This document shows positions 14,958 through 28,693 of a stretch of DNA of 64,000 nucleotides, piece after piece. Position numbers and translations under genes: made by a program. Numbering within the stretch: position 1 is the stretch's first letter; the number at the start of each line of letters is the position of its first letter. The DNA lies in contig JAIUPK010000001.1 in assembly GCA_020160915.1 (NCBI GenBank), positions 341,645 through 405,644 on the forward strand. The letters are read 5' to 3'. The notes under the pieces were generated by a model that was given only the letters and a program-made list of their open reading frames with translations, ran no database searches and was not told the origin of the DNA. Origin of the DNA: Actinomycetota bacterium. Its GTDB lineage: Bacteria; Actinomycetota; Actinomycetes; Actinomycetales; Microbacteriaceae.

Positions 14958-17854
<2,897 letters not shown>

Positions 17855-17855
<1 letters not shown>

Positions 17856-18226
17856 TACTCCCCCGTCAGCTTCGAGTACTCGTCGAAGGAGAGCAGGGCG
17901 GGCAGCTCGGCGTACTCCACCTTGATGAGCCAGCCCTCGCCGAACGGGTCGCTGTTGACCAGCTCGGGGCTGGCGACCACGGCGTCATTGGCCTCGACGA
18001 CGGTGCCGTTGACCGGAGCGAACAGCTCACCGACCGACTTGGTCGACTCGATCTCGCCCACGACCTTGCCCTCGGCAACGCTCGAGCCGGCCTTCGGGAG
18101 GTCGACGAACACGATGTCGCCCAGCTTCTCGGCCGCGTAGGCGGTGATGCCCACAGTCGCGACGGCACCGTCGACGAGCACCCACTCGTGCTCGGCCGTG
18201 TACTGGAGGGTCTTCGGATCAGCCAT
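17855..18226 (-). CDS. gcvH: Glycine cleavage H-protein
   Basis: A 123-residue lipoyl carrier protein. The lipoylated lysine is Lys63 in ESTKSVGEL, and the HEWV motif near the N-terminus is typical. The ATG at 18226 is chosen: it gives the normal family length and a canonical N-terminus ([15 protein letters not shown]), while the open frame upstream is noise. It overlaps the gcvT stop by 8 bp and its own stop overlaps the gcvP start by 1 bp. GcvH shuttles the aminomethyl group from GcvP to GcvT. Confidence 0.97.
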
Positions 18227-19337
18227 GGTTCTCTTCCTTCTTGTAGAACGGCAGTGGGACAACGGATGCCGCGACGCGGCTTCCGCGGACGTCGATCTCG
18301 AGCGTGGTGCCGGCCGCGGAGCTTGCGACATCCACATACGCCATCGCGATCGGGTAGCCGAGGGTCGGGGACAGCGCCCCGCTCGTGATGTTGCCGACCT
18401 CGTCGTCACCATCGAAGACGAGGTAGTCGGCGCGACCGGCGCGTTTGCCCTCGCCGACGAGACCGACGAGCACGCGAGCATCTGCCGGCGGGCCCGCCTC
18501 GATGGCGGCGCGGCCGACGAAGTCGCCCTCCTTGGTCAGCGCGACGACGCGACCGAGTCCGGCCTGCACCGGGAACGTGTCCAGATTCAGCTCGTGTCCA
18601 TAGAGCGGCATGCCCGCCTCGAGCCGCAGGGTGTCGCGACTGGCGAGGCCGGCCGGCACGAGGCCGAAGGGTGCGCCGGCCGAGATGAGGGCCTCCCAGA
18701 GGGATGCCGCGGCATCCGCCTGCACATACAGCTCGTAGCCGTCTTCGCCGGTGTAACCGGTGCGACCGATGATGAGCGGCAGGTCGCCGAACTTCGCGTC
18801 GGTGCTCCAGTAGTACTTGAGCTCGTCGAGAGGCGTCGCCAGCTGGGCGATGCCGGCGGTCGCCTCGAGGATGCCGCGCGAGAGAGGCCCCTGCACCGCG
18901 ATCAGCGAGATGTCGTCGCTCTGGTCCTCGATGGTGACGTCGAAGTCGCCAGCGCGCTCGGTGAGTGCGGCGACGACCGGGAAGCGATTGCCTGCGTTGG
19001 CCACGACGAGGAACGCGTCATCCGCCCGTCGGTAGACGACGAGGTCGTCGATGATGCCGCCGGACTCAGCGAGCAGCAGGGAGTACTTCGCCTGGCCGAG
19101 ACCGATCGCCGAGAGCTTGCCCGCGAGCGCGTAGTCGAGGAAGGCCGGCGCGTCCGGGCCCGACACCAGGATCTCGGCCATGTGCGAGATGTCGAAGATG
19201 CCGGCGGCGGTGCGCACCGCGTGGTGCTCGGCGAGGTCGGAGCTGTAGCGCACCGGCATCTGCCAGCCGGCGAAGTCGGTGAAGCTTGCCCCAGCGTCGA
19301 CGTGCAACTGGTGAAGGGGGGACGATCGATCGCTCAC
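18219..19337 (-). CDS. gcvT: Aminomethyltransferase, T-protein of glycine cleavage
   Basis: A 372-residue GcvT that transfers the methylene group from the H-protein to tetrahydrofolate and releases ammonia. Family features include [11 protein letters not shown] near the N-terminus, [14 protein letters not shown] in the middle and a C-terminal beta-barrel domain. The GTG at 19337 has a GGAG 5 nt upstream and gives the expected N-terminus. It is the first gene of gcvTHP and lies directly behind the glycine riboswitch, so the whole operon is predicted to be switched by glycine. Confidence 0.97.
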
Positions 19338-19373
19338 GGAGTTCTCCTGAATGCACGGCTGCTGGGTAGAACT

Positions 19374-19626
19374 CCCCCTCTGTAATGGGCCTGAGAGTTT
19401 CGCGACCGTGCCATTGGCACGGGTCACTTTCACCGTCGGCGGCTCTCGCGTGCGTGGTGCGGGTTTCGATACGCGGCTGCGCCGCTACTCGACCTGCTTC
19501 GCGCTTCGCGAGAAGCACTTTCCAGAGTGGCCAGTTCGATGCGGTACATGAACCTGAGAGATTGGCGGGGAGGCTTGCTCCTTCGGTGCTGGGGCCATGG
19601 TGCCCGAGCTCTCCCGCATCGTGTTG
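19374..19626 (-). promoter_or_regulatory. Tandem glycine riboswitch in the gcvT leader
   Basis: On the minus strand two glycine aptamers lie in series. Aptamer I (about 19626-19528) shows GGGAGAG, the CACCGAAGGAGCAA core and AATCTCTCAGG. Aptamer II (about 19527-19374) begins CTCTGGAAAG, contains CCGACGGTGAAAG and AAACTCTCAGG, and ends ACAGAGGGGG, which pairs with CTCTGG as P1. The gcvT GTG follows 37 nt after the second P1. The family's usual action is to allow gcv expression when glycine binds. Aptamer II is enlarged by a REP-like palindrome at 19462-19494, where the variable P3a hairpin normally lies. Confidence 0.92.
19462..19494. repeat. REP-like palindromic unit C, inside glycine riboswitch aptamer II
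   Basis: Family layout with head GGTTTCGATACG, stem-loop CGGCTGCGCCG and tail CTACTCGACC. It lies between the 5' strand of P1/P2 and the conserved core of the second glycine aptamer, so it is transcribed as part of the riboswitch. Confidence 0.85.
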
Positions 19627-25596: not shown

Positions 25597-25700
25597 GTTG
25601 TTCGACGGAACTCGACCACGTCGTCGCCCACATCTTCTGGAGGCCACCATGTGAGGCCGCCGCAGAGCACGGCGGGCATGAGTCTGGGTTCGGCCCTGAA
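25594..25700 (-). pseudogene. Decayed 3' fragment of a DUF6188-like gene
   Basis: About 90 bp closely resemble the 3' end of the intact gene at 26791-27234. The translated core GLTWWPPEDVGDDVVEFR parallels GLTWWLPEGVDGDVVEFR there. A 1-bp deletion near the end shifts the frame, and nothing of the N-terminal two thirds is recognisable. The similarity begins exactly where the toxin-antitoxin operator ends, suggesting a recombination junction. Confidence 0.65.
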
Positions 25701-26790: not shown

Positions 26791-27234
26791 TCAGTTGTTG
26801 AAGCGGAACTCCACCACGTCGCCGTCCACACCTTCTGGAAGCCACCATGTGAGGCCGCCGCCGGGCATGGAGACGAACTTCCACCCGCCGTCGACATCCA
26901 AGGTAAACGCCTCCCAAGGATCATCAGACGAGGCAACCGAAAGCGTCGCGCCACCTGAGAAGTTCACCCTCAGTGCACCCGACGGCCGGATGGTTGCCGA
27001 TACTAGTGCGAGTTGGTGAAGCGCCACGACCTCTGACGCGTTGCTCGGCGAGCCCGGCTCAATCGGAACCGCTCGATCGCTGATAGTGACCTCAAATGAC
27101 TTTTCGACACGAAGAACGATGTGCTCCGTGATGATGGACACTCCGTAATCGAATGACGTCTGCCAGACCGCCTCATCCGAGAACTGAAGCGACCAGCCGT
27201 CGCTGTCGTGCTTGACACTCATTGACGCGATCAT
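26791..27234 (-). CDS. DUF6188-like protein ending in a copy of the YchF C-terminus
   Basis: A 147-residue soluble protein. The middle (LRVEKSF, a GALRVNFSGGATLSV strand pair, then DPWEAFTLDVDGGWKFVSMPGGGLTWW) fits my memory of DUF6188, a family often met near immunity-like genes. Its last ten residues, GDVVEFRFNN, are identical to the last ten of YchF, and the DNA is identical over 35 bp at 26793-26827 and 27622-27656. The ATG overlaps the stop of the gene upstream by 4 bp, so both are probably translated together. Confidence 0.7.
   Translation of the reverse strand: MIASMSVKHDSDGWSLQFSDEAVWQTSFDYGVSIITEHIVLRVEKSFEVTISDRAVPIEPGSPSNASEVVALHQLALVSATIRPSGALRVNFSGGATLSVASSDDPWEAFTLDVDGGWKFVSMPGGGLTWWLPEGVDGDVVEFRFNN
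26793..26827. repeat. Copy of the ychF 3' end, 35-bp direct repeat
   Basis: Identical base for base to 27622-27656. Together with the diverged copy at 25596-25630 it makes three ychF 3'-end-like sequences in 2 kb. Confidence 0.9.
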
Positions 27235-27619: not shown

Positions 27620-28693
27620 CTAGTTGTTGAAGCGGAACTCCACCACGTCGCCGTCCTGCATGACGTAGTCCTTGCCCTCGATGCGAGCCTTGCCCTTGGC
27701 GCGGGCCTCGGCGATCGAGCCGGTCTCGACGAGGTCGTCGAATCCGATGACCTCCGCCTTGATGAAGCCCTTCTCGAAGTCGGTGTGGATGACGCCCGCC
27801 GCCTGCGGCGCCTTCCAGCCCTTGCCGATCGTCCAGGCGCGCGACTCCTTGGGGCCTGCGGTGAGGTAGGTCTGCAGGCCGAGGGTGTCGAAGCCGATGC
27901 GGGCGAGCTGGTCAAGACCGCTCTCCTCCTGGCCGGTGGAGGCGAGTAGCTCCGCCGCGTCCGCCTCGTCGAGATCGATGAGCTCGGACTCGAGCTTGGC
28001 GTCGAGGAACACGGCGTGAGCTGGCGCGACAAGGGCTGCGAGCGCGGCCTTCTTGGCGGCATCCGTCAGTATCGCCTCGTCGACGTTGAAGACGTAGATG
28101 AACGGCTTCGCGGTGAGCAGCCCGAGCTCGCGAATCGGGTCGAGGTCGAGACCGGATGCGCTCAGCGGCTTGCCCGAGTCCAGAACCTTCTGCGCGGCGA
28201 GGGCGGTCTCCAGCACGACCGGTTCGGCGCGCTTGGTCTTGACCTCCTTCTCGTAGCGCTCGATCGCCTTCGTGAGCGTCTGCAGGTCGGCGAGGATCAG
28301 CTCAGTGTTGATGGTCTCCATGTCGGATGCCGCATCCACTCGCCCGTCGACATGCACGACATCGGCGTCGGTGAAGCCGCGGATGACCTGCGCAATCGCG
28401 TCGGCCTCGCGGATGTTGGCGAGGAACTTGTTGCCCAACCCCTCGCCGATGCTCGCACCCTTGACGATGCCCGCGATGTCGACGAACGACACCGGCGCGG
28501 GCAGGATGCGCTCGCTGCCGAAGATTCCCGCGAGCACCTTCAGGCGCGGGTCGGGCAGGTTCACCACCCCGACGTTGGGCTCGATGGTCGCGAACGGGTA
28601 GTTCGCCGCCAGCACCGAATTCTTGGTCAGCGCATTGAACAGGGTGGACTTGCCGACATTGGGCAGTCCGACGATCGCGATAGTGAGAGCCAC
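27620..28693 (-). CDS. ychF: YchF/Ola1-family P-loop NTPase
   Basis: A 357-residue YchF. The P-loop GLPNVGKS lies at residues 9-16, the conserved GIVKGASIGEGLGNKFL follows, and the atypical NVDE replaces the guanine-specific NKxD, as expected for a family that prefers ATP. The C-terminal TGS domain ends in GDVVEFRFNN. The GTG at 28693 gives the normal length; the upstream open frame is noise. YchF associates with ribosomes and affects oxidative-stress responses. Its 3' end is duplicated downstream. Confidence 0.97.
   Translation of the reverse strand: MALTIAIVGLPNVGKSTLFNALTKNSVLAANYPFATIEPNVGVVNLPDPRLKVLAGIFGSERILPAPVSFVDIAGIVKGASIGEGLGNKFLANIREADAIAQVIRGFTDADVVHVDGRVDAASDMETINTELILADLQTLTKAIERYEKEVKTKRAEPVVLETALAAQKVLDSGKPLSASGLDLDPIRELGLLTAKPFIYVFNVDEAILTDAAKKAALAALVAPAHAVFLDAKLESELIDLDEADAAELLASTGQEESGLDQLARIGFDTLGLQTYLTAGPKESRAWTIGKGWKAPQAAGVIHTDFEKGFIKAEVIGFDDLVETGSIAEARAKGKARIEGKDYVMQDGDVVEFRFNN

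Follow-up and report, generated by a model that had tools for sequence, protein, structure and literature searches.

A genomic palindromic repeat as a probable structural arm of P2 in a gcvT glycine riboswitch of Microbacteriaceae

REP and BIME elements and RAYT-linked repeats form a known class of genomic palindromic repeats. The Rickettsia palindromic elements are palindromes inserted in frame within protein genes, and the STRR repeats are tandem heptamers in cyanobacterial RNase P RNA. The locus described here, a palindromic unit in the leader of the glycine gene gcvT, displays individual features of each. As in REP, BIME and RAYT-linked repeats, its family consists of imperfect palindromes of about 33 bases, present in tens to hundreds per genome and sometimes in inverted pairs. 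The Rickettsia elements are matched by in-frame palindromes within gcvP, although the bacteria and the sequence are others and one unit here lies in a riboswitch helix. STRR repeats, too, are genomic repeats located at the periphery of a structured RNA, but the heptamers form no palindrome and that RNA does not sense a ligand.

Riboswitches accept stable stem-loops at certain sites, according to the accessible part of Barrick and Breaker (2007, PMC2258182). Compared with the variable aptamer insertions in that text, the present one belongs to a genome-wide repeat family, keeps a single orientation and recurs in several genera. The gcvT tandem glycine riboswitch of N. gonorrhoeae also carries a long insertion in aptamer 2, a 73-base P3 loop; as far as the available portion of that paper goes (PMC13104608), the insertion lies in the P3 loop rather than in P2 and is not described as a repeat. 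In the open-access literature, with subscription journals mostly outside the search and some articles accessible only in part, we recognised no report of a repeat palindrome within a riboswitch.

The stretch analysed here, called the window, is 64,000 nt long; all coordinates are positions within it and the features of the gcvT leader and the gcv genes are on the minus strand (Table 1). Read on that strand, the segment 19462-19494 is GGTCGAGTAGCGGCGCAGCCGCGTATCGAAACC, one complete unit of a 33-base imperfect palindrome. At up to three mismatches the palindrome has 94 copies in its own genome, 51 forward and 43 reverse, while the reversed-pattern control has none in the same genome, so the family consists, like REP elements, of a short imperfect palindrome in many dispersed copies. 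Some copies lie inside the gcvP coding sequence, so that not all are extragenic, and in this the units differ from REP, BIME and RAYT-linked repeats. A second difference is that a Y1 transposase (PF01797, TnpA-REP) was found in none of 12 repeat-bearing genomes, the own genome included and all but G246, G410 and G086 covered; the control search was positive in 5 of 14 known genomes. For those 12 genomes a Y1-type RAYT mover is thus rejected, and we therefore name the units REP-like and keep them apart from RAYT elements. Elsewhere in the window, two 67-base stretches (25606-25672 and 26804-26870) are 88% alike and lie 1198 bases apart, and a 35-base part of that neighbourhood (26793-26827) is repeated exactly at 27622-27656.

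Both glycine aptamers exceed the RF00504 gathering score of 32 and stand in tandem upstream of gcvT. The covariance alignment places the unit within 65 inserted bases in the loop of the first aptamer II hairpin, which follows the P1 5' strand and precedes the core. The preliminary description had reported a REP-like palindrome forming part of the second aptamer. The copy number bears out the first half of this, and the covariance model, which places the unit inside aptamer II and not outside it, together with its stem in the predicted fold, bears out the second; the position between the P1 5' strand and the core likewise holds, but the helix had been named P3a. The accessible part of PMC13104608 describes a central loop at which P1, P2 and P3 join, with P3a as a short conserved helix at the glycine pocket; by this naming, and by the covariance alignment, the unit-bearing hairpin is P2 and P3a is rejected. 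Folded alone, aptamer II reaches -70.5 kcal/mol (z = -3.7; 0 of 200 shuffles as good), and the predicted fold contains P1, P2 and P3 around the conserved core, with P3a and P3b formed and the unit at the tip of a lengthened P2. When both aptamers are folded together, the minimum-energy fold keeps P2 and P3 of aptamer II and loses its P1, which is present in the centroid. On these predictions, the unit, a genomic palindromic repeat, probably serves as a structural arm of P2.

Table 1. Features of the gcvT leader and neighbouring genes (positions in the 64,000-nt window)
Feature	Position	Strand	Basis or remark
Glycine riboswitch aptamer I	19532..19626	-	RF00504, 62.8 bits, E 1.2e-10, full model
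Glycine riboswitch aptamer II, lengthened P2	19373..19530	-	RF00504, 33.5 bits, barely above gathering score 32; fold z = -3.7
Hairpin A: P2 5' strand a, GAA triloop, a'	19495..19517	-	Adjoins repeat unit; 9/10 pairs Watson-Crick
REP-like palindrome unit, tip of P2	19462..19494	-	Genome-wide copies; inside 65-base model insertion; hairpin in predicted fold
Spacer and P2 3' strand a'' (CGCGAGAGC, 19442-19450)	19442..19461	-	Pairs with a in predicted lengthened P2
Conserved core of aptamer II, CGCCGACGGTGAAAG	19427..19441	-	Similar core in relatives
Hairpin able to hide gcvT ribosome-binding site; overlaps aptamer II P1 3' strand	19338..19375	-	Predicted fold, z just -1.05
gcvT, downstream gene, GTG start at 19337	18219..19337	-	Open reading frame; start inferred from ribosome site; best relatives Microbacteriaceae GcvT
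Repeat unit inside gcvP, in frame	17240..17272	-	Extra residues versus 42 other GcvP rows
Second unit inside gcvP, inverted and shorter, in frame	17203..17231	-	Position; alignment with GcvP rows
Degenerate unit, variable loop of gcvP, in frame	15598..15628	-	Alignment: no clear net insertion
Repeat-bearing aptamer II loci	L088, L086, L087, L066, L174, L175, L176, L202-L207, L179, L048		Rfam scoring

Downstream of the aptamers, the GGGAGTT...GAACTC motif of the hairpin at the gcvT ribosome-binding site is present in 92 of 128 leaders, and this hairpin is the putative expression platform. Because it overlaps P1 of aptamer II, glycine binding should free the gcvT ribosome site, as judged by analogy with the riboswitch family, and control would then be exerted on translation. 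The four units counted earlier as sharing an operon do so provided that gcvT and gcvP form a single operon. In gcvP, the inverted pair (17203-17272) accounts for 11 residues in columns that are gapped in more than 80% of 42 other GcvP rows.

The repeat-bearing P2 mostly contains a strand with two potential partners. In 13 of the 15 genomes that carry the unit, the layout runs from a hairpin (a, short loop, a'), here called hairpin A, through the unit and a spacer to a'', which is a copy more or less like a', so that strand a can pair with either a' or a''. Of the other two, G004 has the bare repeat as its entire P2 and G034 is without hairpin A. When P2 of G323 is compared with the empty P2 of the congeneric G284, the 3' strand AGCGAATC is apparently doubled around the repeat. 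As a standard partner of the repeat, hairpin A was rejected: its motif is rarer than the reversed control in 13 of 13 genomes, and by eye it is absent from the flanks of 29 other copies in the own genome and from those of the copies in 20 stretches of G323.

Which partner is used bears on the architecture of the junction. If the real P2 were the local hairpin A, with the repeat and its tail inserted between P2 and P3, a four-way junction would result. Hairpin A is fully Watson-Crick in 8 of the 13 genomes, related rows show two-sided changes (C-G in G323, U-A in G386), and at equilibrium in the whole aptamer the hairpin is preferred in four genomes (G021, G321, G410 and G086). In the window leader, however, the mean pair probability in the whole aptamer is 0.78 for a:a'' and about zero for hairpin A, the a:a'' duplex is worth -13.8 kcal/mol, and only 1.6% of 500 shuffled tails do as well. 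More generally, a:a'' is chosen over a:a' in 10 genomes against 3 when P2 is folded alone and is likelier in 8 of 13 in the whole aptamer (G118 shows neither), and it outdoes shuffled tails at <0.03 in 7 of 13, the exceptions being G014, G021, G410, G191, G118 and G086. Since hairpin A is also poor in G014 and missing from G004 and G034, we regard a four-way junction as the general architecture as rather unlikely. The predictions are consistent with a lengthened P2 and a canonical junction in the window leader, and with a possible four-way junction or folding-order effect in some genomes.

Such an effect could make P2 a timing device: hairpin A would form first as the leader is transcribed, and its later displacement by a'' would hold back aptamer II and shift the response to glycine. 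Up to the synthesis of a'', hairpin A is predicted with a probability of at least 0.7 in 10 of 13 genomes, while the finished aptamer favours a:a'' in the eight noted above, and both partners are strong (>=0.7 for hairpin A at that stage, <0.03 for a:a'' against shuffled tails) in six of 13 (G321, G323, G386, G129, G287 and G246). The evidence consists entirely of thermodynamic prediction, though, and in the window hairpin A reaches just 0.51 before a'' is made; some genomes, moreover, have no good a' or no good a''. We consider this reading improbable, and give as little credence to its wider form, in which P2 of aptamer II would be a capture hot spot with one orientation selected and the two-partner strand would time the folding of aptamer II and set the glycine response.

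The repeat-bearing P2 recurs among relatives. Among named genomes, the best GcvT matches are in Cryobacterium, Salinibacterium, Leifsonia, Clavibacter and other Microbacteriaceae, and RF00504 matches occur in 48 of 60 genomes, own genome included. Aptamer II is recognisable in 237 of 398 genomes of the family. Its P2 measures 5-35 bases in 200 genomes, judged among the rows listed, so that short cases resembling G004 may have escaped, and 30-90 bases in 55, of which 19 were judged on the first 80 bases and not on whole loci; 18 genomes are common to both lists. Altogether, the unit or a decayed form of it occupies P2 of aptamer II in 15 genomes from nine genera (eight without G086), 12 from the 398-genome sample (G000, G034, G321, G323, G386, G191, G129, G287, G410, G246, G118 and G086) and three more from the 60 relatives (G004, G014 and G021). 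Because 10 of the 15 came from searches aimed at long or repeat-bearing P2, this number is no estimate of frequency. The units of G410 and, strongly, G086 are decayed, and that of G118 resembles the consensus weakly (20 of 1000 shuffles as good). Seven further genomes with a long P2 (G107, G217, G242, G306, G032 and the pair G324/G433) show a doubtful resemblance to the repeat at most and were excluded. By eye, some long P2 (L181, L183, L105) seem to have the same layout of hairpin, second hairpin and partial 3'-strand copy, with a middle hairpin unlike the repeat.

Same-genus relatives can have a short, unrelated P2, as G284 does compared with G323 and G386. Relatives with and without the unit thus both exist, and the unit occupies a stem that elsewhere holds a short unrelated sequence. 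The preliminary description had asked for such a comparison and had suggested that the locus would be a rare case of repeat domestication; the filled state proves instead to be recurrent within the family. Separately, a further tandem glycine riboswitch occurs at another locus in eleven genomes of the genus; its P2 is conserved and of a different kind, and the repeat is absent (L054, L062, L065, L068, L070, L073, L075, L077, L080, L081 and L083).

Recurrence could reflect one ancestral insertion or many captures. Mapped onto a 77-row GcvT tree, the presence of the unit requires 12 changes, and well supported branches force at least 10 of these. When the labels are shuffled the mean is 14.0, and 41 of 500 shuffles get by with as few as 12. 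The tree represents a single gene, and parsimony does not distinguish gain from loss. One supported clade joins G386, G323 and G126, the last of which is without the unit. The repeat subtypes add to this. The P2 units of G021 and G034 are both of the GAKGAG..GTCTCGA kind, which has 71 matches in the first genome and 237 in the second, against 3 and 38 for GAGTAG..GTATCGA, and the P2 stem of G323 and G386, GGCCGCCCGCGGCC, is common to many of their genome copies, among the copies listed. Such counts include chance matches, since G284, which has no GAGTAG copies, still gives 29 to one subtype pattern, and the excess in G021 is for that reason smaller than it appears, although many of the listed G021 matches have a self-complementary stem. 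That the subtype in P2 is frequent in its own genome in several lineages favours repeated capture over one old insertion.

In the alternative, one old insertion was followed by many losses, and gene conversion between repeats produced the match with the host subtype. This would account for the same orientation everywhere and for the layout of hairpin A, repeat and tail shared by 13 of 15 genomes, and three of the tree changes may be one gain and two losses. Against it stand the different subtypes of G021, G034 and G323/G386, each fitting its own genome, the bare repeat of G004, the missing hairpin A of G034 and the changes forced by supported branches. A single ancestral insertion is therefore unlikely in our estimation. 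The sequences point to independent, repeated capture; gene conversion is the main alternative.

Whatever the number of events, position and orientation are constant. A strict repeat-core scan of both strands of 130 leader stretches (some genomes represented twice, part chosen for a long P2) gave 10 matches from nine genomes, all in P2 of aptamer II and all forward, and none in aptamer I, P3b or the flanks; the remaining unit calls are relaxed and were judged by sequence. Against the consensus, 14 units, all except that of G086, score higher forward than reverse. The long-P2 search (55 genomes) was independent of orientation, and within the first 80 bases no reverse unit was seen by eye in 19 long-P2 genomes. 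Assuming ten separate events, a number estimated from the tree, the probability that all share a single direction is 0.002. As RNA, the kept strand is 2.2 kcal/mol more stable on average and the better one in 29 of 30 copies of the own genome, and reversing the unit inside P2 is less favourable by 2.0-5.9 kcal/mol in all eight cases tested. We infer that the orientation is under selection.

These data also bear on the idea that the repeat has the same role here as in any other transcript, for example on RNA stability or as an RNase or protein site, and is merely located in the leader. Its copies are spread all over the genome, and in an Rfam scan of 24 of the 29 other loci in the own genome only one yielded an Rfam match, to a tRNA some 40 bases away from the unit. 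Yet the orientation in P2 is constant where the genome copies divide almost evenly, and the 130 leader stretches hold no strict copy outside P2. An any-transcript role accordingly seems very unlikely to us.

We propose the following account, which draws on the computed position, copy number, recurrence, constant orientation, host-subtype match in several genomes and predicted fold. A genomic palindrome probably entered P2 in the second aptamer of the gcvT glycine riboswitch and has been retained there as structure. P2 points away from the glycine pocket, for which reason its tip would tolerate extra hairpins; the unit would be kept only in the direction that gives the more stable RNA hairpin; and a'', which duplicates the P2 3' strand on the far side of the repeat, would allow P2 to re-close beside P3. 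In the most likely reading, P2 accommodates palindromes structurally as a tolerant site, and tolerance rather than gain would be the reason for their persistence.

With filled and empty sites in relatives, one helix and one orientation, the family provides a naturally replicated experiment on the accommodation of a repeat by a structured RNA, and suggests a possible source for long variable riboswitch stems. It also bears on annotation. Only 5 of 15 genomes have a repeat-bearing aptamer II that attains the Rfam gathering score (the register of L207 is doubtful because its match starts within P2), and tandem switches of this kind can therefore be annotated as single.
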